Shown here one piece after another: positions 35,712 to 51,418 of a stretch of DNA of 52,015 nt (position 1 is its first letter; each line of letters starts with the position of its first letter). The notes beneath the pieces were generated by a model. The model had not been told where the DNA came from, ran no database searches, and saw only the letters and a list, made by a program, of their open reading frames with translations. The stretch comes from Oscillibacter sp. Lineage in GTDB: Bacteria > Bacillota > Clostridia > Oscillospirales > Oscillospiraceae. The DNA is taken from the NCBI GenBank assembly GCA_017937405.1, contig JAGBDS010000006.1, forward strand, positions 1 to 52,015, read 5' to 3'. The translations under genes and the position numbers were made by a program.

Positions 35712-35787
35712 AATGATCCCTCACTTCCTGGATATTGTACCCGCCATGGCGGGCACAGTATATCCTATGTTCCGGGAGCCGTTTTGG

Positions 35788-36798
35788 TCAGAGAGAGGCC
35801 TCAAAATCCGCCAGGGCGGCCAGCAGGGCCGCCTTGGTCTCCGCTCCGCAGAAGGCGGCGTGGACCGCCGTCCGCTGGCAGTGCAGCAGCTCTTCCCCGG
35901 TCATGGCACCAAAGGACGCTGCCCGGCGCAGCTCCTCCGTCAGCGTCAGGCCGTCCAGGAAGGTGGGGTCGTCCCGGTTCAGCGTCACCGCCGCGCCCGC
36001 GTCCAGCAGGCGGCGCAGGGGGTGGTCCTCCGGGCGCTTATACAGCAGCGTCAGGTTGGAGCTCAGGCAGATGTTCAGGGGCACCCGTGTCTCCGCCAGA
36101 CGGCGGAGCAGCGCCGGGTCCTCCGCCGCCCGGACACCGTGGTCCAGGCGGTCCGCCTCCAGCAGGTCCAGGGCGTCCCGGACACCCTCCGGGCCGCTGC
36201 TCTCCCCGGCGTGGACCGTCAGCCCGAAGCCGGCGGCTTTCGCCGCCAGAAAGGCGGGACGGAACCGTTCCCCGGTAGGGCCTGCCAGGGCCTCGTTGCC
36301 GTCGATGGAGAGGCCCGCCAGCCGGGGCGTCCGGTGGGTCTTCATCTGCTCCACCAGGGCCATGGCCTCCGCCGCCGTCTGCGTCCGGGAGAGGGACAGG
36401 GTAAAGCGGCAGTCCGTGCCGCCGGAGGCCTGCCCCCGGTCAAAGCCCGCCGTCACGGCCCGGATAATCTCCGGCACCGTGAACTGGGGCCAGTGGGTGG
36501 GATTCAGAATGGTCTCCATGTAGAGGATGTTCTCCCGTCGGCTCTCCAGCGCGGCGTGCTCCGCCACCTCGGACAATTCCTCCAACCTGCCCACATAAGC
36601 GCAGATACTGTCCAGAAAGGTGAGGAAATTGCTCAGGTCATCAGCGGAGCAATGGTACAGCTCTTCGGCGGGACGGGGGAGCCGTTTCCCCTGCCAGGAC
36701 GCGAACCGCTCCAGCATGTCCCCGGGCATCATGGATTCCAGATGGACGTGCAGTTCGAGTTTGGGCATATCCGCCAGGAATCCGGAAGTGATCTCCAT
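35788..36798 (-). CDS. Adenosine deaminase-family protein
   Basis: 336 residues from the ATG at 36798, behind AGAGGAGACACGGAT. Metal motif PKLELHVHLES (HxH), catalytic regions TVHAGES (His, Glu) and LDHGVRA, and the Asp pair in LNRDDPTFLD. These are the ADA/adenine deaminase zinc ligands. It should deaminate adenosine, adenine or a modified base. Two departures from the usual text: LES where LDG(S/A) is common, and NRDDP for the usual S/T-DDP, so substrate may differ. A longer frame upstream has no ribosome site. Divergent from the MATE gene. Confidence 0.78.
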   Translation of the reverse strand: MEITSGFLADMPKLELHVHLESMMPGDMLERFASWQGKRLPRPAEELYHCSADDLSNFLTFLDSICAYVGRLEELSEVAEHAALESRRENILYMETILNPTHWPQFTVPEIIRAVTAGFDRGQASGGTDCRFTLSLSRTQTAAEAMALVEQMKTHRTPRLAGLSIDGNEALAGPTGERFRPAFLAAKAAGFGLTVHAGESSGPEGVRDALDLLEADRLDHGVRAAEDPALLRRLAETRVPLNICLSSNLTLLYKRPEDHPLRRLLDAGAAVTLNRDDPTFLDGLTLTEELRRAASFGAMTGEELLHCQRTAVHAAFCGAETKAALLAALADFEASL

Positions 36799-36881
36799 AT
36801 CCGTGTCTCCTCTCGTTTTTGCAGTCATTGTAGCACATTCACCTTTTTCGGAAAAGTCCTTTCCTTTTTTCAAAACCGTGA

Positions 36882-36911
36882 TATAATGTCATACAGAAAG
36901 CGAAAACGTTT
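36882..36911 (+). promoter_or_regulatory. MATE gene -10 box and AAACGTTT operator
   Basis: -10 TATAAT at 36882 to 36887; a recognisable -35 is weak (CTTTCC at 36859). The operator AAACGTTT at 36904 to 36911 would start about ten bases after the transcription start, where a bound LacI protein would block transcription. Confidence 0.65.
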
Positions 36912-36924
36912 GAGGTATAGAGAT

Positions 36925-38268
36925 ATGGACGAAAAGCAGGAGCAAAAATTTCACAAAATGACAGAAACGCCTGTGGGCAAACTGATTTGCCAGCTGGCTC
37001 TGCCCTGCATCATCAGTATGCTGGTCACTTCCTTTTACAACATGGCGGACACATTTTTCGTGGGCAAGCTGGACAGCGACGCCGCCACCGGCGCCGTGGG
37101 CGTGGTCTTTTCCCTGATGGCCGTCATCCAGGCCATCGGGTTCTTCTTCGGCCACGGCAGCGGCAACTTCATCTCCCGGGAGCTGGGAAAGCAGAACTTT
37201 GACGACGCCTCCAACATGGCGGCTACCGGGTTCTTCTCCGCTTTGGGGGCAGGTTTGATCCTCTGTATTCTGGGCCAAATTTTTCTGGAGCCGCTGGCTT
37301 ACCTCCTGGGCTCCACGGACACCATCCTGCCCTACGCGAAAGCCTATATGCGCATCATCCTCTTCGGCGCGCCGTGGATGACTGCCTCCCTGGTGCTGAA
37401 CAACCAGCTCCGGTTCCAGGGCAGCGCCGCCTACGGCATGGTGGGCATCACCAGCGGCGCCGTGCTGAACATCGCCCTGGACCCCCTGCTGATTTTTGTC
37501 ATGGATATGGGCGTGGCGGGCGCAGCCCTGGCCACCATCATCAGCCAGTTCGTCAGCTTCTGTTTGCTGCTGGTGGGCTGCGGCAAGGGCGGCAACCTCC
37601 ACATCCACATCTCCCGGGTGCAGCTGAAATGGTCCTATTACGCCCAGATCATCCGGGGCGGGCTGCCCTCCCTGGCCCGGCAGGGACTGGCCTCCGTGGC
37701 TACCATCTGCCTGAATCTGGCTGCCAAGCCCTACGGCGACGCCGCCATCGCCGCCATGGGCGTGGTGCAGCGCATCATGATGTTCGGCGCCTCCGCCATG
37801 ATCGGCTTCGGTCAAGGCTTCCAGCCGGTATGCGGCTTCAACTACGGCGCCAAACTGTACGGCCGGGTGAAGAAGGGCTTCTGGTTCTGCGTCAAAAGCT
37901 CCACCACATTTCTCTTTGCCATCGGCGCCCTGGGCTTTATCTTCGCACCCCAGCTGGTGGCCCTGTTCCGGGACAGCCCGGAGGTCATCGCCATCGGTTC
38001 CACAGCTCTGCGGTTCCAGTGCGTCACCTTTTGCTTCCACGGCTGGGTGGTCATGAGCAACATGATGCTGCAGACCATCGGACGCACCGGCCCTGCCACC
38101 TTCCTGGCCATGGCCCGGCAGGGCATCTTTTTCATTCCCCTGGTCTGGCTTCTCTCCCACACGCTGGGGCTCACCGGCATCCAGATGACACAGATGGTCT
38201 CCGATTTTCTGACGCTGGCCTGTGCGATCCCCATCCAGATCAAGGTCCTGCGGCAAATACCCGCATGA
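36925..38268 (+). CDS. MATE-family efflux transporter
   Basis: 447 residues, 12 hydrophobic segments of the MatE fold (DinF/MepA group). LPCIISMLVTSFYNMADTFF is the first helix motif, and the second half repeats it at GGLPSLARQGLASVATICLN. It exports organic cations or drugs using Na+ or H+ gradients. The start at 36925 lies behind GAGGTATAGAGAT; an in-frame extension to 35713 runs antisense through the adenosine deaminase gene and is rejected. Its expression appears controlled by the LacI-type operator in the leader. Confidence 0.92.
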   Translation: MDEKQEQKFHKMTETPVGKLICQLALPCIISMLVTSFYNMADTFFVGKLDSDAATGAVGVVFSLMAVIQAIGFFFGHGSGNFISRELGKQNFDDASNMAATGFFSALGAGLILCILGQIFLEPLAYLLGSTDTILPYAKAYMRIILFGAPWMTASLVLNNQLRFQGSAAYGMVGITSGAVLNIALDPLLIFVMDMGVAGAALATIISQFVSFCLLLVGCGKGGNLHIHISRVQLKWSYYAQIIRGGLPSLARQGLASVATICLNLAAKPYGDAAIAAMGVVQRIMMFGASAMIGFGQGFQPVCGFNYGAKLYGRVKKGFWFCVKSSTTFLFAIGALGFIFAPQLVALFRDSPEVIAIGSTALRFQCVTFCFHGWVVMSNMMLQTIGRTGPATFLAMARQGIFFIPLVWLLSHTLGLTGIQMTQMVSDFLTLACAIPIQIKVLRQIPA

Positions 38269-42508: not shown

Positions 42509-43513
42509 TTAATCCAGCTCCCGGCAGGTACCGCGCTTGATAAGCGTGGGCAGCAGGATCTGGTGGACATAGCCCTGTGTGCCGTTTTCGATCTTGTCCC
42601 GCAGCATATCCACCGCCTGGACCGCCATCTCCCGCTTAGGCTGCTCAATGGTGGTCAGCTCGATGCGGGGAAGGCCCGTGGAGGGGATGTTATCAAAGCC
42701 GATCAGGCTCAAATGACCGGGAATATCGATATGCATCTCATCCGCTGCCTTCAGGATACCCAGGGCGTTGGAGTCCGTGGATGCGAAGATGGCGGAGTAA
42801 TCAATAGGCTTGGAAAACAGTTCCTTTGCCATCTCGTAGCCATTGGCGATAGAGGAACGGGAGAACTCGCTGTTGACGAAGCGTTGCTGGAGCCCCAGCT
42901 CCTGGCAGGCTTTCATGTATCCCTCCGCCCGGAGCTGGTGTGTGGTGGTATGGCGGCGGCCAAAGTACAGAATGTCCCGGTGGCCCAGTTCATAGAGGTA
43001 TTTGGTGCCGACATAAGTGCCACGGCTGTTGTCCACAGCCACATAGCTCTGGGGCTGGTCCCGGAGGTTCTCGCTGAGGAACACCGTGGGGACCTGGTCC
43101 GTATAGGCCCGGATATTCTCGTAGGTCTTGGGGCTCTGGGGAACGATGAGGATGCCGTCCACCTGCCGTCCCAGCAGCAGCTTGACCACCGTCTTCTCCT
43201 GCTTCAGGTCGGGGCCGGAGTTACACAGCATCACATTGTAGCCGTGGGACCGGGCGCTCATCTCCGCATAGTAGGCCAGCTCGGACATGAAGGCGTTATC
43301 AATGGAGGGTACTACCAAGCCGATGAGGTCTGTCTTCTTCATCACCATGGAACGGGCCACATAGTTGGTGGTATAGCCCATCTCATCACAGAGCTTGATG
43401 ATACGCTCCCGGGTGTCGCTGCCGATCTGGGGGCTGCCCGACAGGGCGCGGGAAACTGTGGCATAGGAGACGCCCGCTGCCTTGGCGACATCTTTCAAGG
43501 TCACACTTTTCAT
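42509..43513 (-). CDS. LacI-family transcriptional regulator
   Basis: 334 residues, the family's usual length. N-terminal HTH: VTLKDVAKAAGVSYATVSRA (residues 4 to 23), hinge with NYVARSMVMKKTDLIGLVVP, then a periplasmic-binding-like sensor domain (DGILIVPQSPKTYENIRAYT; FASTDSNALGILKAADEMHI; IGFDNIPSTGLPRIELTTIE). It probably binds a sugar or sugar phosphate. Start ATG at 43513 has GGAGG nine bases upstream. An AAACGTTT palindrome lies in its own leader and in front of the divergent HAD operon, suggesting autoregulation. CcpA is a relative of equal size and cannot be excluded. Confidence 0.92.
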   Translation of the reverse strand: MKSVTLKDVAKAAGVSYATVSRALSGSPQIGSDTRERIIKLCDEMGYTTNYVARSMVMKKTDLIGLVVPSIDNAFMSELAYYAEMSARSHGYNVMLCNSGPDLKQEKTVVKLLLGRQVDGILIVPQSPKTYENIRAYTDQVPTVFLSENLRDQPQSYVAVDNSRGTYVGTKYLYELGHRDILYFGRRHTTTHQLRAEGYMKACQELGLQQRFVNSEFSRSSIANGYEMAKELFSKPIDYSAIFASTDSNALGILKAADEMHIDIPGHLSLIGFDNIPSTGLPRIELTTIEQPKREMAVQAVDMLRDKIENGTQGYVHQILLPTLIKRGTCRELD

Positions 43514-43545
43514 CTGTATCGTCTCCTCCATACCGCGAAAATCGC

Positions 43546-43763: not shown

Positions 43764-43796
43764 ACAAACCATTTGATGAACCAGGAGGGGATGCCT

Positions 43797-44552
43797 ATGA
43801 TCCGCGCCGTTCTTTTCGATGTAGGCGGTACACTGCACGAAGTCCATCATTCTCCGGAGCTGGAGGCCAGCTTCTGCCAGAGGCTTTTGGACCTGCTCTC
43901 CGCCCACGGCATCGCCCTTCCCGTCACCGCCGCCGAGCTGGCGCCCCGGCTGCACGAGAACGCGGAAGCCTACAAGCACTGGTCGGAAGGCTCCCGTCTG
44001 GAGCTGCCCAGCGCGAAGATATGGAGCGAGTACTATTTGAAAGAGTTCCATCTCAGTGAGGAGCTTCTGGCGCCTATTTCGGAGGAGCTGTCGTGGATGT
44101 ACGACGCCGTCCGGGTGGAAAACGTCCCCCGCCCCCATATGCGGGAGACCATTCGTGCCCTCCACGATGCGGGCCTGACCCTGGGCATCATCAGCAACAT
44201 CATCTCCACTACCTTTGTTCCCCGGCTGCTGGAGGATTACGGCATCGCGGACCTGATGAGCTGCGTCATCCTGTCCTCCACCGCCGGCATTCGCAAGCCT
44301 GACGCCGCCATCTTTGAAAAAGCCGCCGCGGAGTGCGGCGTGCCCTGCGGGGAGATGGCCTATGTGGGCGATACCCTCTCCCGGGACGTACTGGGCTGCC
44401 GGAATGCGGGCGTGGCCCTCTCCATCCAAATCAGCAACCCGTCCATTGCCCACCGGGATACGGCCTTTACCGGCACCGGCCTGGCGCCGGATGTGCTGAT
44501 CCACGACCTGTCCGAGATCCCCGGCATCATTCGGGCTTTCAACGCCCGGTAA
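43797..44552 (+). CDS. HAD-superfamily protein 1 of five
   Basis: 251 residues from the ATG at 43797 (AGGAGGGG eight bases upstream). HAD fold: nucleophile Asp8 in VLFDVGGTLHEV, motif II Ser in LGIISNIIS, motif III Lys in GIRKPDAAIF, motif IV Asp in YVGDTLSRD. The Asp expected two residues after the nucleophile (general acid/base of phosphatases) is Gly10. So it may not be a standard phosphatase. It is the first gene of an operon of five such proteins and a permuted mutase, and the most divergent of the five. Confidence 0.85.
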   Translation: MIRAVLFDVGGTLHEVHHSPELEASFCQRLLDLLSAHGIALPVTAAELAPRLHENAEAYKHWSEGSRLELPSAKIWSEYYLKEFHLSEELLAPISEELSWMYDAVRVENVPRPHMRETIRALHDAGLTLGIISNIISTTFVPRLLEDYGIADLMSCVILSSTAGIRKPDAAIFEKAAAECGVPCGEMAYVGDTLSRDVLGCRNAGVALSIQISNPSIAHRDTAFTGTGLAPDVLIHDLSEIPGIIRAFNAR

Positions 44553-44599
44553 GCCATTTACCATAACAAGCCAATTATATTTTTAAGGAGGACGATGAC

Positions 44600-45334
44600 A
44601 TGACTCCCGATATCCAGACTATCTTTTTTGACGTTGGCAACACCCTGCGCATTGTGGTACCTGACCAGGAATTCATCGACAAGGCCGAGGCCGGCCTGAT
44701 GGAACTGATCCAGACCAAGGAATCTCACGATGAGCTGTTCGCCAAGCTGGAGGAGCGGTGGCAGGTCTACCGCAAGCTGTCCAAGAAGACCCTGCTGGAC
44801 GTCTCTGAAGGCGAGCTGTGGACCCAGTTCATGCTGCCTGACTATGACCCCAACATGATCTATGCCAACGCCCCCCGGCTGACCCGCCTGTGGCGGGACC
44901 ACGACGGCCGCCGCGTGGCCCGTCCCGACGCTGTTGCTACCCTGAAGGAGCTGCAGGCCCGTGGCTACACCCTGGGTATCATCGCCAACACCGTCACCGA
45001 AACGGAGATCCCCGACTGGATGGCCGCCGACGGCGTGGCCCAGTGCTTCAAGACCACCATTCTGTCCTCCAAGGTCCGCCTGCGCAAGCCCGACCCCGCC
45101 ATCTACCACCTGGCCTGCCGCTGCATCGGCACCCCCGAGGCCAACTGCGCCTACGTCGGCGACAACCCCGTCCGCGACGTGGAGGGCACCCAGGCCGCCG
45201 GCTTCGGCATGATGATCCGCATCGACGAGCCCGACACCCTGAACAAGGAGAAGGCCACCGGCAAGGAGTTCATTCCCGACCACGTCATCACGAAGCTGTC
45301 CGACCTGCTGGACATCTTCCCCGCCCGTGGGTGA
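44600..45334 (+). CDS. HAD-superfamily protein 2 of five
   Basis: 244 residues, ATG behind AAGGAGGACGATGAC. Nucleophile Asp11 in IFFDVGNTLRIV with Gly13 in place of the second Asp. Motif II reads LGIIANTVTETEI, so the usual Ser/Thr is Ala. Motif III Lys in VRLRKPDPAIY and motif IV Asp in YVGDNPVRDVEG are kept. It is closely similar to HAD 3 (shared SSKVRLRKP and GTPEANCAY), a recent tandem duplicate. A catalytically weakened or non-phosphatase role is possible. The stop is four bases before the next ATG. Confidence 0.85.
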   Translation: MTPDIQTIFFDVGNTLRIVVPDQEFIDKAEAGLMELIQTKESHDELFAKLEERWQVYRKLSKKTLLDVSEGELWTQFMLPDYDPNMIYANAPRLTRLWRDHDGRRVARPDAVATLKELQARGYTLGIIANTVTETEIPDWMAADGVAQCFKTTILSSKVRLRKPDPAIYHLACRCIGTPEANCAYVGDNPVRDVEGTQAAGFGMMIRIDEPDTLNKEKATGKEFIPDHVITKLSDLLDIFPARG

Positions 45335-45338
45335 CCGA

Positions 45339-46070
45339 ATGGCGCTGGCTGATATTCAAACCATCTTTTTCGACATCGGCAGCACGCTGCGGGTGACGGA
45401 CAAGGATCCCGCGTTTATCGCGGAGGGCCGCCGGAAGCTGGCGGCGCTGGCCAAGAGCAGCGAGGACCCCGAGGTCTTTTACAAGAAGCTGAAGGACCGC
45501 TATGACGTCTACCGGGAGGCCTCCAAGGTCGCTTTGCTGGACTATCCCGAAATCGAGCTCTGGCAGCAGATCATGCTGCCGGATGTGGACGGCGAATATG
45601 TAGCCGCCCATGCTCAGGAATTCACCACCCTCTGGCGGGACGGCACCAACGGCAAGCGCCTCACCCGGTTCGACACCGTGGACACCGTCAAGGAGCTTTA
45701 CCGCCGGGGCTACAAGCTGGGCATCATCGCCAACACCATCACCGAGACGGAGATCACCGACTGGATGATCGAGGAGGGCATCTCCCACTGCTTTACCACC
45801 ACTATCCTCTCCTCCAAGGTGCGGCTGCGCAAGCCCGCCCCCGCCATCTACCACCTGTCCTGCCGCTGCTGCGGCACCCCGGAAGCAAATTGCGCCTACA
45901 TCGGCGACAACCCCGACCGGGACGTGGAGGGCACCCGTGCCGCCGGCTTCGGCTGCATGATCCTCATCGACGACCCCAAGAAGGGCCGGACGGAGAAAAT
46001 GCGGGAAGCCTGCGACTACCTGATTGAGAATCTCAGCGATCTGCTGGAGCTCTTCCCCGCCCGCGTCTGA
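45339..46070 (+). CDS. HAD-superfamily protein 3 of five
   Basis: 243 residues; the ATG at 45339 was preferred over a GTG at 45327, which lacks a ribosome site. Nucleophile Asp12 in IFFDIGSTLRVT with Gly14 replacing the second Asp; motif II GIIANTITETEI again has Ala; motif III Lys in VRLRKPAPAIY; motif IV in YIGDNPDRDVEG. Tandem duplicate of HAD 2. With only four bases between them the genes are translationally coupled. Substrate unknown. Confidence 0.84.
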   Translation: MALADIQTIFFDIGSTLRVTDKDPAFIAEGRRKLAALAKSSEDPEVFYKKLKDRYDVYREASKVALLDYPEIELWQQIMLPDVDGEYVAAHAQEFTTLWRDGTNGKRLTRFDTVDTVKELYRRGYKLGIIANTITETEITDWMIEEGISHCFTTTILSSKVRLRKPAPAIYHLSCRCCGTPEANCAYIGDNPDRDVEGTRAAGFGCMILIDDPKKGRTEKMREACDYLIENLSDLLELFPARV

Positions 46071-46101
46071 GCGGCAATCAAGACATAGGAGGTTTCTACC
46101 C

Positions 46102-46839
46102 ATGGATAACACCAAGCGTTTCAAAGCAGTATTTTTTGACCTGGGCGGCACCCTGCGTATCGCCCTGAAGGATGAGCCCTACATGAAGCACGCCCGCCGC
46201 AAGATGGCGGAAATCGCCGGTACCGATATGCCCTACGAGGAATTCTTCCAGCTGGTCGAGGACCGCTACGAGCCCTACCGCAAGTGGGCCCTGGGCGAGT
46301 TCAAGGAGTCCGGCGACGAGGAGCTGTGGTGCAAGTGGCTGCTGCCCGACTATGACCAGGCCCGCATCAAGCAGGTCTGCCATGAGCTGAGCTTCCAGTA
46401 CCGCCAGACCAAGGGCCGCCGCGTCGTGGTGGACGGCGGCGTGGAGGTCATCAAGGGCCTCCATGAGCGGGGCTACCGCTTAGGCATCATCTCCAACCTC
46501 ATCGGCGAGAACGAGGTTCCCGACTGGCTGGAGGAGGACGGCCTGGACCAGTATTTCGACTCCGTCATTCTCTCCTCTGTCTGCCACCTGCGCAAGCCCG
46601 GCTTTGAGATCTATCAGCTCTGCGCCAAGGAAATGGGCGTGGAACTGGCGGACTGCGTGTCTGTGGCCGACAATGTGAAGCGGGACATCCCCGGCGCCAA
46701 GAAGGCCGGCGTGGGCTGCAACATCATCTTCGAGTCCCCGGAGAAGAAACACGCCGTGGAGTTTACCGAGGAGACCCGTCCCGACGCGGTCATCAAGGAC
46801 TTCCGGGAAATTCTGGACTTGCTGCCGCCCCTGAATTAA
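46102..46839 (+). CDS. HAD-superfamily protein 4 of five
   Basis: 245 residues, ATG at 46102 behind AGGAGGTTTCTACCC. Nucleophile Asp13 in VFFDLGGTLRIA with Gly15 for the second Asp; motif II LGIISNLIGENEV keeps Ser; motif III CHLRKPGFEIY; motif IV SVADNVKRDIPG, where the usual Gly-Asp is Ala-Asp. It shares a block QYRQTKGRRVVVDGG with HAD 5, so these form a second duplicate pair. The 61-base gap to HAD 5 holds a GC-rich hairpin. Confidence 0.84.
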   Translation: MDNTKRFKAVFFDLGGTLRIALKDEPYMKHARRKMAEIAGTDMPYEEFFQLVEDRYEPYRKWALGEFKESGDEELWCKWLLPDYDQARIKQVCHELSFQYRQTKGRRVVVDGGVEVIKGLHERGYRLGIISNLIGENEVPDWLEEDGLDQYFDSVILSSVCHLRKPGFEIYQLCAKEMGVELADCVSVADNVKRDIPGAKKAGVGCNIIFESPEKKHAVEFTEETRPDAVIKDFREILDLLPPLN

Positions 46840-46849
46840 AAACTACATA

Positions 46850-46881
46850 CGGGACGTCCGGGACCCCCCGGGCGCGTCCCG
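46850..46881 (+). repeat. GC-rich hairpin between HAD 4 and HAD 5
   Basis: CGGGACG at 46850 pairs with CGTCCCG at 46875, with an inner CCGGG/CCCGG stem. No U-run, so probably an mRNA-stability or processing element inside the operon. Confidence 0.6.
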
Positions 46882-46900
46882 CGTTCTGGAGGTAATCGCA

Positions 46901-47677
46901 ATGAATACTGATATCCGCTATATCTTTATCGACCTGGGCGGCACCTTCCGCGTCATCGACGAGGACCCCGCCTACCTCTCCGCCGCCCGTGCCAAGATCG
47001 CCGAGCTGTGCGGCGTGGAGACCGACGATGCCAACAAGTGGTTCGATGATGTGATCGACAAGCGGTACGACAAGTACCGGGAGTGGGCGCTGAAATACAT
47101 GTGTGAGGCTCCCGAGGAGGTCCTGTGGACCCGCTGGCTGGCCTATGACATGGACCGGGAGCGCATTTTGAAGAACGCCTCCGAGCTGACCTACCAGTAC
47201 CGCCAGACCAAGGGCCGCCGCACTGTGGTAGAGGGCGGCGCTGAGACTGTCAAGGAGCTGTGCAAGCGCGGCTACACCCTGGGCATCATCAGCGATTTGG
47301 TTGGCAAACGCGAGGTGGACGAGTGGCTGGACGCCGACGGCCTGCGCCCCTATTTCAAGACCGTTCAGCAGTCCTCCATCACTTACGTCCGCAAGCCCGG
47401 CCCCGCCATCTACTACTACGCCATGGAGGAGGTCGGCGCCCAGCCGGAGAATTGCTGCTACGTGGGCGACAACCTGAACCGGGACATCGTGGGCGCCAAG
47501 GCCGTGGATTTCGGCATGACCGTGGCTGTCCAGTACAACAAAAACAAGCCCCTGAAGCTCACTGAGGAAAATATGCCCAGTGGCAAGATCTACACCTTCC
47601 CCCAGCTGCTGGATATCTTCCCCGCCTGCGGCCAGGTGGCTGTGGATAAGCTGACCGCTCCCGACGACGGGCAGTAA
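46901..47677 (+). CDS. HAD-superfamily protein 5 of five
   Basis: 258 residues, ATG behind GGAGGTAATCGCA. Nucleophile Asp11 in IFIDLGGTFRVI with Gly13 in place of the second Asp; motif II LGIISDLVGKREV keeps Ser; motif III TYVRKPGPAIYYY; motif IV YVGDNLNRDIVG. Closest to HAD 4 (YQYRQTKGRRTVVEGG). A longer C-terminal tail ends KLTAPDDGQ. Twenty-three bases separate it from the permuted phosphoglycerate mutase, so the two proteins are made from one message. Confidence 0.85.
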   Translation: MNTDIRYIFIDLGGTFRVIDEDPAYLSAARAKIAELCGVETDDANKWFDDVIDKRYDKYREWALKYMCEAPEEVLWTRWLAYDMDRERILKNASELTYQYRQTKGRRTVVEGGAETVKELCKRGYTLGIISDLVGKREVDEWLDADGLRPYFKTVQQSSITYVRKPGPAIYYYAMEEVGAQPENCCYVGDNLNRDIVGAKAVDFGMTVAVQYNKNKPLKLTEENMPSGKIYTFPQLLDIFPACGQVAVDKLTAPDDGQ

Positions 47678-47700
47678 TTTGTAATCAGGAGGTACATTCT

Positions 47701-49269
47701 ATGTCTGATATCAAACGCGGCGGCGCCCAGCTGGCGGAAGCCGTCAAGAAAGCATACGAACTGGGCCAGGACGACTACCATCTGGAGCCTATGCTCCTGG
47801 TGGAGGACGGCAAGCCCGTGGGCAAAATTTCCGACGGCGACGCCGCCATCTTCTGCTGCCGCCGGGGCGAGCGGGAGATCGAGCTGACCGAGATGTTCAC
47901 CGAGGAGGGCTTCGACAAGGTGGAGCGCCGGAAGCTCAACGACCTGGACTTCGTCATCATGACCATGTACCACGACAAGTTCAAGGACCTGCCCATCGCC
48001 TTCGCCCCCGCCAAGGTGGTGAAGCCCCTGGCCCAGGTCCTCAGCGAGGCCGGTAAATCCCAGTTCCACTGCGCCGAGAGCGAGAAGTTCGCCCATGTGA
48101 CCTTCTTCTTCAACGGCGGCGAGAACAATCCCTTCCCCGGTGAAGACGACGTTTGCATCCCCTCCCCCAAGGGCATCGACTTCGACCAGCAGCCGGAGCT
48201 GTCCCTGCCCAAGGTGGCGGACACCGTGATGGACGCCCTGGGCAAGTACGACTTCGTAGTCACCAACTTCGCCAACGGCGACGTCATCGGCCACACTCAG
48301 AACACCGCCGCCAAGATCCAGGCCTGCGGCCACGTCAGCCACTATCTGGACGTGGTGGTCCACGACGCGCTGGCCAAGGGCTACGTGGTGGCCATCACCG
48401 CCGACCACGGCAACATTGAAAAGCTGTACACCGCCGCCGGCAAGCCCGACGGCGCCCACACCACCAACCTGGTGCCCTTCATCATGATCGACCCCGCCGA
48501 TCAGGCGCCCATCGCCCTGCGGGACGGCTCCCTGGGCGACGTGGCTCCCACCGTGCTGGATGTCATGGGCATCCCCCAGCCCGCCGATATGGACGGCAAG
48601 TCCCTGGCCGAGGGCAAGAACTGGGGCAAGGACCGCAAGATGCTCCTCATCATCTGCGACGGCTGGGGCCTGGGCACCGGCGACGAGAACGACGCCATCC
48701 ATGTGGCGGACACTCCCTACTGGGACTCCCTGCTGGCAGAGCAGTCCTGGAGCAAACTCCATGCCTCCGGCGAGTTCGTGGGTCTGGGCGCTGGCAAGGC
48801 CGGCAACTCCGAGGCAGGCCACTCCAACCTGGGTGCCGGCCGCTGCGTGATGCAGGACGACGTCCGGCTGGACGCCGCCGTGAAGGACGGTAGCTTCAAG
48901 AAGAACCCCATCTTCCTGCAGGCCATCGAGCACGCAAAGAAGAACGGCACCGCCCTGCACTTGCTGGCCTATCTGACCTACAAGTCCTCCCACGGCTGCA
49001 TCGACTATCCCCTGAACATCTGCGAGATGGCGAAGGAAGCCGGTTTGGAGCAGGTCTACTTCCACATCATCTTCGACGGCCGCTCCACCGAGCCCGGCTC
49101 CGCCCCCACCCTGCTGGCCGAGCTGGACGCCAGGCTGGACGAGATCGGCCTGGGCCGCATCGTGGACGGTGTGGGCCGCGGCGTGGTGCTGGACCGCGAC
49201 AAGAACTACGACAAGGTCAAGCGCGCCTACGACGCCATGGTGGACGGCGTGGGCACCCTGTACGAATAA
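47701..49269 (+). CDS. Circularly permuted iPGM (cofactor-independent phosphoglycerate mutase)
   Basis: 522 residues whose two halves are in swapped order relative to GpmI (about 510). Residues 30 to 300 match the usual C-terminal half (KISDGDAAIFCCRRGEREIE, CAESEKFAHVTFFFNGG, NFANGDVIGHT, AITADHGN, GAHTTNLVPF); a short linker (about 301 to 313) leads to MLLIICDGWGLGTG, the usual N-terminus, with GNSEAGHSNLGAG. The chain ends where the normal protein has GEGPTY. All seven Mn ligands are present (D194, H198, D235, H236, H253, D320, S370), as are counterparts of R153, R185, R191, R261, R264, K336 and H123; only the D154 counterpart is Ser462. It should be an active mutase or close relative. ATG behind AGGAGGTACATTCT. 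Confidence 0.88.
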   Translation: MSDIKRGGAQLAEAVKKAYELGQDDYHLEPMLLVEDGKPVGKISDGDAAIFCCRRGEREIELTEMFTEEGFDKVERRKLNDLDFVIMTMYHDKFKDLPIAFAPAKVVKPLAQVLSEAGKSQFHCAESEKFAHVTFFFNGGENNPFPGEDDVCIPSPKGIDFDQQPELSLPKVADTVMDALGKYDFVVTNFANGDVIGHTQNTAAKIQACGHVSHYLDVVVHDALAKGYVVAITADHGNIEKLYTAAGKPDGAHTTNLVPFIMIDPADQAPIALRDGSLGDVAPTVLDVMGIPQPADMDGKSLAEGKNWGKDRKMLLIICDGWGLGTGDENDAIHVADTPYWDSLLAEQSWSKLHASGEFVGLGAGKAGNSEAGHSNLGAGRCVMQDDVRLDAAVKDGSFKKNPIFLQAIEHAKKNGTALHLLAYLTYKSSHGCIDYPLNICEMAKEAGLEQVYFHIIFDGRSTEPGSAPTLLAELDARLDEIGLGRIVDGVGRGVVLDRDKNYDKVKRAYDAMVDGVGTLYE

Positions 49270-49597: not shown

Positions 49598-50431
49598 ATG
49601 AACGAGAAGAAGTGCAAAGTTCTGGCGGCCGAGATCCGGCTGGAGACCCTGAAGGTCATCCACTCCCGCGGTTTTGGTCATGTGGGCGGCTCCATGGATC
49701 TGGCCGATCTGATGGCCGTTCTGTATGGAGAGGTCATGAAATTCGATCCCAAGAATCCCCGTTGGGAAGACCGTGACTGGCTGGTCCTGTCCAAGGGCCA
49801 CGCCGGCCCTGTGGCTTACGCCACTTTCGGTCTGATGGGCTATTATCCCCTGGAGGATGCCTATACCCTGAACCAGCCCGGCACCAAGTTCCCCAGCCAC
49901 ACTGACCGGAAGCTGACTCCCGGCGTGGACCTGACCACCGGCTCCCTGGGCCAGGGCGTGTCCACCGCTACCGGCGCGGCTCTCGGCAACAAGATCGACG
50001 GCCGTGACAATCACGTGTTCTGCGTCATCGGCGACGGCGAGGCCGACGAGGGCCAGGTCTGGGAAGGCTTCCACTTTGCCTATGCCCACAAGCTGGACAA
50101 CATCATCTACTTCATCGACAACAACGGCTATCAGCTGGACGGCCCCACCGACGACATCCTGGCCCACGGCAGCCTTGCCAAGAAGGCCGAGGCTTTCGGC
50201 CTGTACACCCAGGAGATCGACGGCCACGACGTGAAGGCCATCTACGACGCCATCCAGAATGCCTACGCCAAGAAGGGCGTGCCCAGCTGCATCGTTCTGG
50301 ACACCTGCAAGGGTAAGGGCGCCACCTTCGCCGAGCCCAAGCACGATCACTCCTCTCAGCCCAACGAAGAGCAGTGGGCCGAGGCTCTGGCCGCCGCCGA
50401 AAAGGCTTTGGAAGAAGCCAAGAACGCTTAA
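49598..50431 (+). CDS. Transketolase, N-terminal subunit
   Basis: 277 residues, the N-terminal half of a split transketolase. Thiamine diphosphate-binding region: HSRGFGHVGGSMDLADLMAV (His), VLSKGHAGPV, and GDGEADEGQVWEGFHFAYAH with the conserved GDG...N motif (FIDNNGYQLDG). Pairs with the next gene's subunit to form the active site. It moves two-carbon ketol units between sugar phosphates in the pentose phosphate pathway. The ATG at 49598 has AAAGGAAG upstream. Split transketolases are usual in clostridia. Confidence 0.92.
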   Translation: MNEKKCKVLAAEIRLETLKVIHSRGFGHVGGSMDLADLMAVLYGEVMKFDPKNPRWEDRDWLVLSKGHAGPVAYATFGLMGYYPLEDAYTLNQPGTKFPSHTDRKLTPGVDLTTGSLGQGVSTATGAALGNKIDGRDNHVFCVIGDGEADEGQVWEGFHFAYAHKLDNIIYFIDNNGYQLDGPTDDILAHGSLAKKAEAFGLYTQEIDGHDVKAIYDAIQNAYAKKGVPSCIVLDTCKGKGATFAEPKHDHSSQPNEEQWAEALAAAEKALEEAKNA

Positions 50432-50446
50432 AGGAGGGCAAGAACG

Positions 50447-51418
50447 ATGAACGTGAAACTGATTGGTGAGCATAAAAAAGATTCCCGCGCCTGCCGCGAC
50501 GGTCTCGCTCTGACCCTGAACGAGATGATGGCGGAGGACAAGTCCATCTGCTATGTGGACTGCGACCTGATGGGCTGCATCAACACCAAGATGCTGCGCA
50601 AGAACTATCCCGACCGCGCCTTTGAGGCCGGTATTGCCGAGGCCAACGGCGCCGGCGTGGCCGCCGGCCTTGCCGCCACCGGCAAGAAGGTGTTCTATCA
50701 CTCCTTCGGCACCTTCTCCTCCCGCCGCTGCTATGACCAGATCTACATGTCCGCCGCTTATGCCGGTCTCAGCGTCCGCGTGCTGGGCTCCGACGCCGGC
50801 GTCACCGCTGCCTTCAACGGCGGCACCCATATGCCTCTGGAGGATGCCGCCATGTACCTGAGCATCCCCGAGACCACCGTGCTGGACCCCGCTGACTACG
50901 ATCAGCTTGCCAGCATCACCCGCCAGCTGGTGAACGTGGAGGGCGTTTCCTACACCCGCTTTGTCCGCAAGGGCATCATCCAGGTCTACGGCGAGGGCTC
51001 CGAGTTTGAGATCGGCAAGGGCGTTGTCCTGCATGAGAGCGACAGCGATGTTGCCACCATCATCACCTCCGGCATCATGGTGGACGAGAGCCTGAAGGCC
51101 TACGAGGCGTTGGCCGCCGAGGGCATTTCTGTCCGCGTCATCGATATGTTCACCTGGAAGCCCCTGGATGAGGAGCTGGTCATCAAGGCCGCCAAGGAGA
51201 CCGGCGCCATCGTCACCGCCGAGAACCACAACGTCACCTGCGGCCTGGGTTCCGTGGTCGCCAACTGCCTGGCCAAGAACTGCCCCACCATCCAGGAGTT
51301 CGTGGGCGTGCAGGACCTGTTCGGCCAGGTCGGTCCCCAGGACTACCTGATGGACGTCTACGGCCTGCGTGCCGCCAACATCGTGGAGGCCGTCAAGAAG
51401 GCCGTTTCCCGCAAGTAA
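50447..51418 (+). CDS. Transketolase, C-terminal subunit
   Basis: 323 residues. The pyrimidine-binding part has RAFEAGIAEANGAGVAAGLA with the catalytic Glu (usual GIAEQN), FHSFGTF-like YHSFGTFSSRRCYDQI, and GSDAGVTAAFNGGTHMPLED, where the usual SHAG is SDAG (His to Asp) though the later TH is kept. The C-terminal domain includes TAENHNVTCGLGSVVAN. These shifts may mean a donor or acceptor other than standard pentose phosphates. It starts 15 bases after the N-subunit with GGAGGGCAAGAACG upstream. Confidence 0.9.
   Translation: MNVKLIGEHKKDSRACRDGLALTLNEMMAEDKSICYVDCDLMGCINTKMLRKNYPDRAFEAGIAEANGAGVAAGLAATGKKVFYHSFGTFSSRRCYDQIYMSAAYAGLSVRVLGSDAGVTAAFNGGTHMPLEDAAMYLSIPETTVLDPADYDQLASITRQLVNVEGVSYTRFVRKGIIQVYGEGSEFEIGKGVVLHESDSDVATIITSGIMVDESLKAYEALAAEGISVRVIDMFTWKPLDEELVIKAAKETGAIVTAENHNVTCGLGSVVANCLAKNCPTIQEFVGVQDLFGQVGPQDYLMDVYGLRAANIVEAVKKAVSRK

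Follow-up and report, generated by a model that had tools for sequence, protein, structure and literature searches.

When considering a reading frame in which the two halves of a central metabolic enzyme seem to stand in swapped order, two questions arise: is the order real, and does the protein still do the work of its relatives? Both are raised by a locus on an Oscillibacter contig (JAGBDS010000006.1), of which a stretch of 52,015 nucleotides, hereafter the window, was analysed. On its forward strand, an open frame with an ATG start (47701-49269) encodes a protein of 522 amino acids; a ribosome-binding-site-like AGGAGG (47687-47692, same strand), read directly from the sequence, lies 8 bases before the ATG. 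The first-pass annotation described the product as a cofactor-independent phosphoglycerate mutase (iPGM) with its C-terminal half first, and the alignment bears out this order. When compared by phmmer to the Geobacillus iPGM (PDB 1EJJ), the protein matches in two blocks, namely, residues 13-302 to chain residues 218-508 (212 bits) and residues 313-521 to chain residues 5-213 (147 bits). Thus, the C-terminal half, placed first, covers residues ~12-303 (47734-48609, plus strand; 218-508 in Bst numbering), and the N-terminal half, placed second, residues 313-522 (48637-49266, plus strand; Bst 5-213). The old C terminus is connected to the old N terminus by a short linker (48607-48636, plus strand), which was initially put at about 12 residues; it does join the old ends, but, counted from the position matching Bst 508 to that matching Bst 5, it has 10 residues in the window protein and 8-10 in 52 permuted proteins. 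The junction is common to these 52 proteins, as are, to within several residues, the new ends, the proposed placement of which is supported. Judging from the domain limits, the permutation presumably makes the phosphatase domain of iPGM continuous and cuts the transferase domain.

The swapped order is also visible with Pfam and NCBIfam profiles. The Metalloenzyme model (PF01676, 192 bits) has its best stretch at residues 103-292, ahead of that of iPGM_N (391-518). The TIGR01307 model matches over two stretches with 462.7 bits against a cut-off of 330.65; this cut-off is passed because the scores of both halves are summed, so that annotation may label the permuted protein as an ordinary GpmI. 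The NF003897 model gives 385.2 bits against a cut-off of 862. With the archaeal-type iPGM (ApgM, TIGR00306), the protein shares weak similarity over the metal-binding core, but its best stretch comprises only 94 residues and scores 31.5 bits against a cut-off of 320.

Could the order reflect an error of assembly or a gene in decay? In a draw of 61 genomes of the genus, 28 carry the permuted gene, 25 of them at full length; among the incomplete copies, one (G037) is split over two overlapping frames, and two (G036 and G054) are cut by contig ends. The permuted gene was found in at least 3 of 120 genomes of the family and at least 2 of 295 of the order, the window's own genome being included in both counts. 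Among 398 genomes of the phylum, 30 match at E <= 1e-70, of which 12, again with the window's genome, have the permuted gene and 18 the normal order only. All but one of these 12 genes belong to a distant group with 39-42% identity, one of its members being cut by a contig end. The permuted gene of a further genome (G531) was missed in this draw because an insertion breaks the alignment; 12 of 398 is therefore a lower bound, and the family and order draws share the same limit. The class to which G503 belongs is small; among its 17 genomes, the gene occurs in 3, all of them already known as carriers. Finally, 44 loci, a number of them fragments, emerged when 84,980 species genomes were scanned; the record titles include Oscillibacter, Dysosmobacter, Oscillospiraceae, Lachnospiraceae, Erysipelotrichaceae and others, and among the assemblies with the permuted order are the named isolates Oscillibacter valericigenes An860 and An890 and Oscillibacter sp. 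1-3.

An artefact or a decaying gene is hardly credible in view of these data. The split copy of G037 could be cited in favour, but the same order recurs in many separate assemblies, in isolates and in a distant clade that is only ~40% identical, which speaks against an assembly join. In comparison to five orthologues, the window gene shows dN/dS values of 0.05-0.27, indicative of purifying selection, and its catalytic residues are invariant except for one shared change (see below), so that decay, already considered unlikely in the first-pass annotation, can be rejected. In the single-contig relative G037, the permuted and the normal gene are both in pieces (G037:C1:1650272-1651824 and 2251207-2252699), which may mean indel errors in that assembly. 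Plasmid-borne spread is not supported either by the matches listed: of 44 plasmid records that matched, the 8 listed each fall into two pieces at 38-41% identity.

Quick trees without an outgroup were built separately for the N-terminal and C-terminal halves from 25 of the 52 permuted rows of the alignment (16 close, 9 distant) and 31 normal sequences (30 of 38 normal rows plus the Geobacillus sequence). In either tree, the permuted sequences stand on one side of a branch and the normal ones on the other, with no permuted sequence falling among the normal iPGMs; the support for this split is 98 (SH-aLRT) in one half-tree, which came with long-branch warnings, and 100 in the other. Since both halves yield the same grouping, a chimera of halves from different sources is not supported. 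The trees are compatible with one permutation that would have occurred before the two clades parted, which is the simplest reading and not a proof.

What did the permutation leave of the active site? The iPGM metal ligands, which we take to be D12, S62, D403, H407, D444, H445 and H462 (Bst numbering), do not vary in any of the 52 permuted or 38 normal rows, in accord with the initial claim that all seven are kept. The permuted rows comprise 42 close and 10 distant sequences, many of the close ones nearly identical; a contig-edge piece (L081), fragments (L063-L067) and repeat copies of loci were left out, as were a partial sequence (L149) and repeat copies on the normal side. The substrate residues, presumably H123, R153, D154, R185, R191, R261, R264 and K336, are equally invariant in all 52 and 38 rows with a single exception: at position 154, all 52 permuted rows and the later-found sequence of G531 have Ser, whereas all 38 normal rows have Asp. 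In the window protein, the segment formed by the C-terminal half contains the metal ligands D194, H198, D235, H236 and H253, the substrate residues R55, R58 and K129, and a new Arg54, whereas the second segment contains the metal ligand D320, the nucleophile and ligand S370, and the substrate residues H431, R461, R493 and R499. The row alignment confirms that Ser462 (49084-49086, plus strand) replaces Asp154; what had been noted as a minor exception in one protein marks the whole permuted set examined.

This replacement is not isolated. Normal iPGM has 185 conserved positions, at 16 of which a different residue is fixed in the permuted set; these 16 are concentrated within 4 residues of the substrate residues (12 of 40 positions versus 4 of 145 elsewhere; Fisher p 2.3e-6, only a guide because the rows are related) and not around the metal ligands (1 of 31 versus 15 of 154 elsewhere). 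In the window protein, residues 428-431 (48982-48993, plus strand, row alignment) read K-S-S-H, in place of the G-G-V-H of normal iPGM, the His being Bst H123; the normal GGVHS is SSHG here. Basic residues have been gained, namely, Lys or Arg at Bst 120 in 49 of 52 permuted rows and, next to R261, Arg at 260 in all 52, and Ala265 has been replaced by Glu in all 52, which adds a negative charge near the pocket. Taken together, the comparisons confirm, at the level of sequence, that the circular permutation is genuine and conserved and that the pocket has changed: the protein retains homology to normal iPGM in both halves, the seven metal ligands, the Ser nucleophile and seven of the eight substrate residues, and differs in the swapped halves and in Ser for Asp154.

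The AlphaFold2 model of the window protein, computed with 23 close-clade relatives in the input, has a mean pLDDT of 84.9 and a pTM of 0.68. A Foldseek search with this model returned 22 matches at E <= 0.001, all to phosphoglycerate mutases; the TM-scores, 0.46 at most, are as low as expected given that only part of a permuted chain aligns in order. The Metalloenzyme domain, together with the predicted fold, places the protein in the alkaline phosphatase superfamily; the model gives the fold and, by itself, no picture of the substrate pocket.

If the permuted protein were the glycolytic mutase, one would like to see it standing in for the normal enzyme. The window's genome, however, also encodes an iPGM in normal order, adjoining the triosephosphate isomerase gene (tpiA), as the permuted gene does not; the two halves of the permuted protein are 42% and 41% identical to it. 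A sole glycolytic mutase of this genome is thus excluded, and the permuted protein is not the housekeeping enzyme. Genomes with the permuted gene were examined under 24 handles, of which G074 and G852 give the same places, leaving 23 distinct ones; a normal iPGM is present in 19 of them, in one (G853) in pieces, and ApgM exceeds the cut-off in three of the other four, all of one genus, so that another phosphoglycerate mutase occurs in 22 of the 23. The remaining genome, G854 (1.0 Mb, with no completeness value given), yielded no other mutase in these searches. The cofactor-dependent GpmA was rejected as a companion, with no match over the cut-off in 12 genomes, 11 of which gave weak superfamily matches (control, 6 of 14).

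The surroundings of the permuted gene differ between the clades. In the window, it is preceded by five tandem, divergent HAD-like genes on the plus strand (43773-47677 overall), assigned from profile and clustering evidence: 43773-44552, 44600-45334, 45327-46070, 46096-46839 (with the start chosen inside the open frame 46024-46839) and 46901-47677, the last one ending 23 bases before the permuted gene. A LacI-family regulator (42509-43531, minus strand) is divergent from the array. Among 42 close-clade loci, with neighbours picked by a simple script and not by a gene finder, a HAD gene lies directly upstream in 37 and one gene further in 1, an ABC transporter takes its place in 3, and 1 has neither. 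Motif I, D-x-G-x-T without the usual second Asp, occurs in 141 of 157 HAD ORF copies, repeat copies of loci included; 16 did not match the pattern. Downstream in the window lies a split transketolase, its N and C parts encoded as two genes (49598-51418), and no other glycolytic gene was found next to the permuted gene there. In several close-clade loci, the permuted gene is followed by one for a membrane pyrophosphatase (L132:10355-12463, L134:8630-11383), in some with an MgtC-like gene in between. Elsewhere in the window, a frame of 851 amino acids (35713-38268), with its best MatE stretch at 431-592, is longer than the usual MATE transporter, perhaps owing to a wrong start.

In part of the distant clade, the permuted gene belongs to an operon of a different kind. 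It includes a homologue of the synthetase (cDPGS) of cyclic 2,3-diphosphoglycerate (cDPG). Five distant loci share the order GntR regulator, cDPGS homologue, binding protein, fused permease, ATPase, permuted gene, GntR being outside the fetched stretch for one of them. The cDPGS homologue matches the cDPGS of M. fervidus (8ORK) with E 1.3e-133; the one scanned matched no Pfam or NCBIfam model. Such archaeal-type homologues were observed in Bacillota at L119:1864-3204 and in L116, L117, L118, L125, L192, L193 and L194. In the phylum draw, cDPGS occurs in 8 of 398 genomes, from three families, and 6 of these 8 are among the 12 permuted-bearing genomes (Fisher p 4.7e-9, without kinship correction); G531 is a seventh cDPGS genome with a permuted gene. 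In all six operons with sufficient contig (G490, G503, G531, G576, G702 and G834), the permuted gene comes directly after the others. The contig of G770 (72% complete) breaks off within the operon ATPase and that of G725 after the binding protein, a cut permuted gene of G725 lying at the edge of another contig.

The link is confined to this part of the distant clade. When 32 genomes were searched for cDPGS, 6 had a strong match, each of them from the distant clade, and 2 a weak one; of the 11 genomes of the distant clade in this search, 5 are without a strong match, and cDPGS is absent from all 15 close-clade genomes searched, the window's included. In G678, cDPGS was not detected and the ATPase directly precedes the permuted gene. 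In the four f86 genomes, a transporter of this kind is not directly next to the permuted gene; a RapZ-family gene lies upstream of it in three loci, a phosphohexomutase-like gene downstream in three, and a nickel/peptide-type transporter at some distance in three. Library scans cover one of these loci, and clustering extends the assignments to the rest.

Transporters that depend on a binding protein are of the importing type. The combination of binding protein, fused permease and ATPase beside the permuted gene, which occurs in some distant-clade genomes and at three loci of the close clade, is reminiscent of AfuABC/PhnSTU-type importers, and the operon binding protein presumably resembles AfuA. 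Nevertheless, the three transporter proteins of L119 (binding protein, permease and ATPase), whose best scores are against PhnS2, PhnU2 and PhnT2, stay below the curated cut-offs, as does its GntR regulator, with about equal scores against HutC and PhnF. Among the solved relatives of the binding protein, the majority bear the names of iron-binding or Fe3+ transport proteins; the ligand may therefore be something other than a phosphorylated compound.

According to the available part of a 2023 paper (PMC10690619), cDPG is made from 2-phosphoglycerate via 2,3-diphosphoglycerate and is exclusive to hyperthermophilic methanogens. The operons share a close cDPGS homologue with the pathway of thermophilic methanogens (2-phosphoglycerate kinase plus cDPGS), but differ from it by the importer and the permuted enzyme and in that no 2-phosphoglycerate kinase was found over the cut-off in 10 genomes, all eight cDPGS genomes included (control, 1 of 14); the single weak match, in G531, has 19.6 bits. 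The window's genome differs further in that cDPGS itself is absent. The available part of PMC12136491 states that the cDPGS reaction favours the synthetic direction; this makes it less likely that the reaction is simply run in reverse once cDPG has been taken up.

We therefore come to the function. The permuted protein can be envisaged as a conserved iPGM paralogue that kept the two-metal/serine phosphotransfer centre and remodelled its pocket, and that would act as a phosphatase or phosphotransferase, perhaps on 2,3-bisphosphoglycerate; we give this reading a probability of roughly 0.5. Ser370 and the two metals would take a phosphate from a small phosphorylated acid; without Asp154, the return of this phosphate to the neighbouring hydroxyl would be impaired, yielding a phosphatase or phosphotransferase instead of a mutase, and the extra basic and hydroxyl residues would hold a second phosphate. 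The substrate class would then be a phosphoglycerate with a second phosphate, 2,3-bisphosphoglycerate, as suggested by the loss of Asp and the gain of Lys/Arg120, Ser121, Ser122 and Arg260. In part of the distant clade, the enzyme, beside an importer and a cDPGS homologue, would feed phosphoglycerate to central metabolism. That the enzyme acts on bisphosphoglycerate is perhaps so, and is the boldest step, since cDPGS is missing from the close-clade genomes searched and the link rests on part of a clade that is ~40% identical. Two observations go against this step: only 3 of 42 close-clade loci have the importer, compared to 38 with HAD genes, and the fixed Glu265 would add negative charge near the pocket. 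The lack of another mutase in G854 and the Phn scores below the cut-offs also count against the reading as a whole.

How do the other possibilities fare? The protein might still be a phosphoglycerate mutase, a regulated or backup isoenzyme in which another residue or water replaces Asp154. This would agree with the invariance of the metal ligands and of the seven other substrate residues, with the TIGR01307 score and with G854; yet the change of Asp154 in every permuted row, the clustering of changes near the substrate residues, the other mutase in nearly all genomes examined and, in the window, the lack of an adjoining glycolytic gene apart from the transketolase make it unlikely. On the same grounds, from the Ser in all permuted rows to the companion mutases, the name given in the first-pass annotation is not supported, and the permuted protein is most likely not a mutase, as far as its pocket residues can tell.

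Alternatively, the enzyme could make 2,3-bisphosphoglycerate, the phosphoserine passing its phosphate to a second phosphoglycerate and thereby supplying cDPGS in place of 2-phosphoglycerate kinase. The shared operon, the failure to find this kinase over the cut-off in the cDPGS genomes, the pocket changes and the preference of cDPGS for synthesis, as given in the available part of PMC12136491, would all fit. However, the operon transporter is of the importing type, and none of the close-clade genomes searched has cDPGS, so that we regard such a synthase as quite improbable. The PhnSTU-like transporter brings to mind another phosphorylated acid, or a phosphonate, unrelated to bisphosphoglycerate. 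The best matches of the L119 genes, all below cut-offs, and the close clade with its HAD genes and without cDPGS speak for such a substrate, whereas cDPGS in the same operon points to phosphoglycerates; this option seems rather improbable. The reading as a phosphatase or phosphotransferase of 2,3-bisphosphoglycerate could be extended, tentatively and with odds well below even, to a new bisphosphoglycerate-specific family, which in some Bacillota might complete a bacterial pathway for the uptake and use of cDPG and in gut Oscillospiraceae, together with the HAD array, might act on a related acid.

No permuted iPGM was found in the open-access literature searched, which does not prove its absence from print; the available part of a survey of bacterial mutases (PMC2964296) does not mention a permuted form and calls iPGM paralogues rare. 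The present data reveal that many bacteria keep, beside the normal form of a central metabolic enzyme, a naturally permuted one. With the phosphatase domain continuous and the transferase domain cut, this natural permutant would provide a direct test of how the iPGM domains and their hinge work, and the fixed replacement of Asp by Ser in a remodelled pocket turns the substrate of the permuted enzyme into a sharp, testable question. The operons with cDPGS, in turn, point to cyclic diphosphoglycerate metabolism in bacteria.
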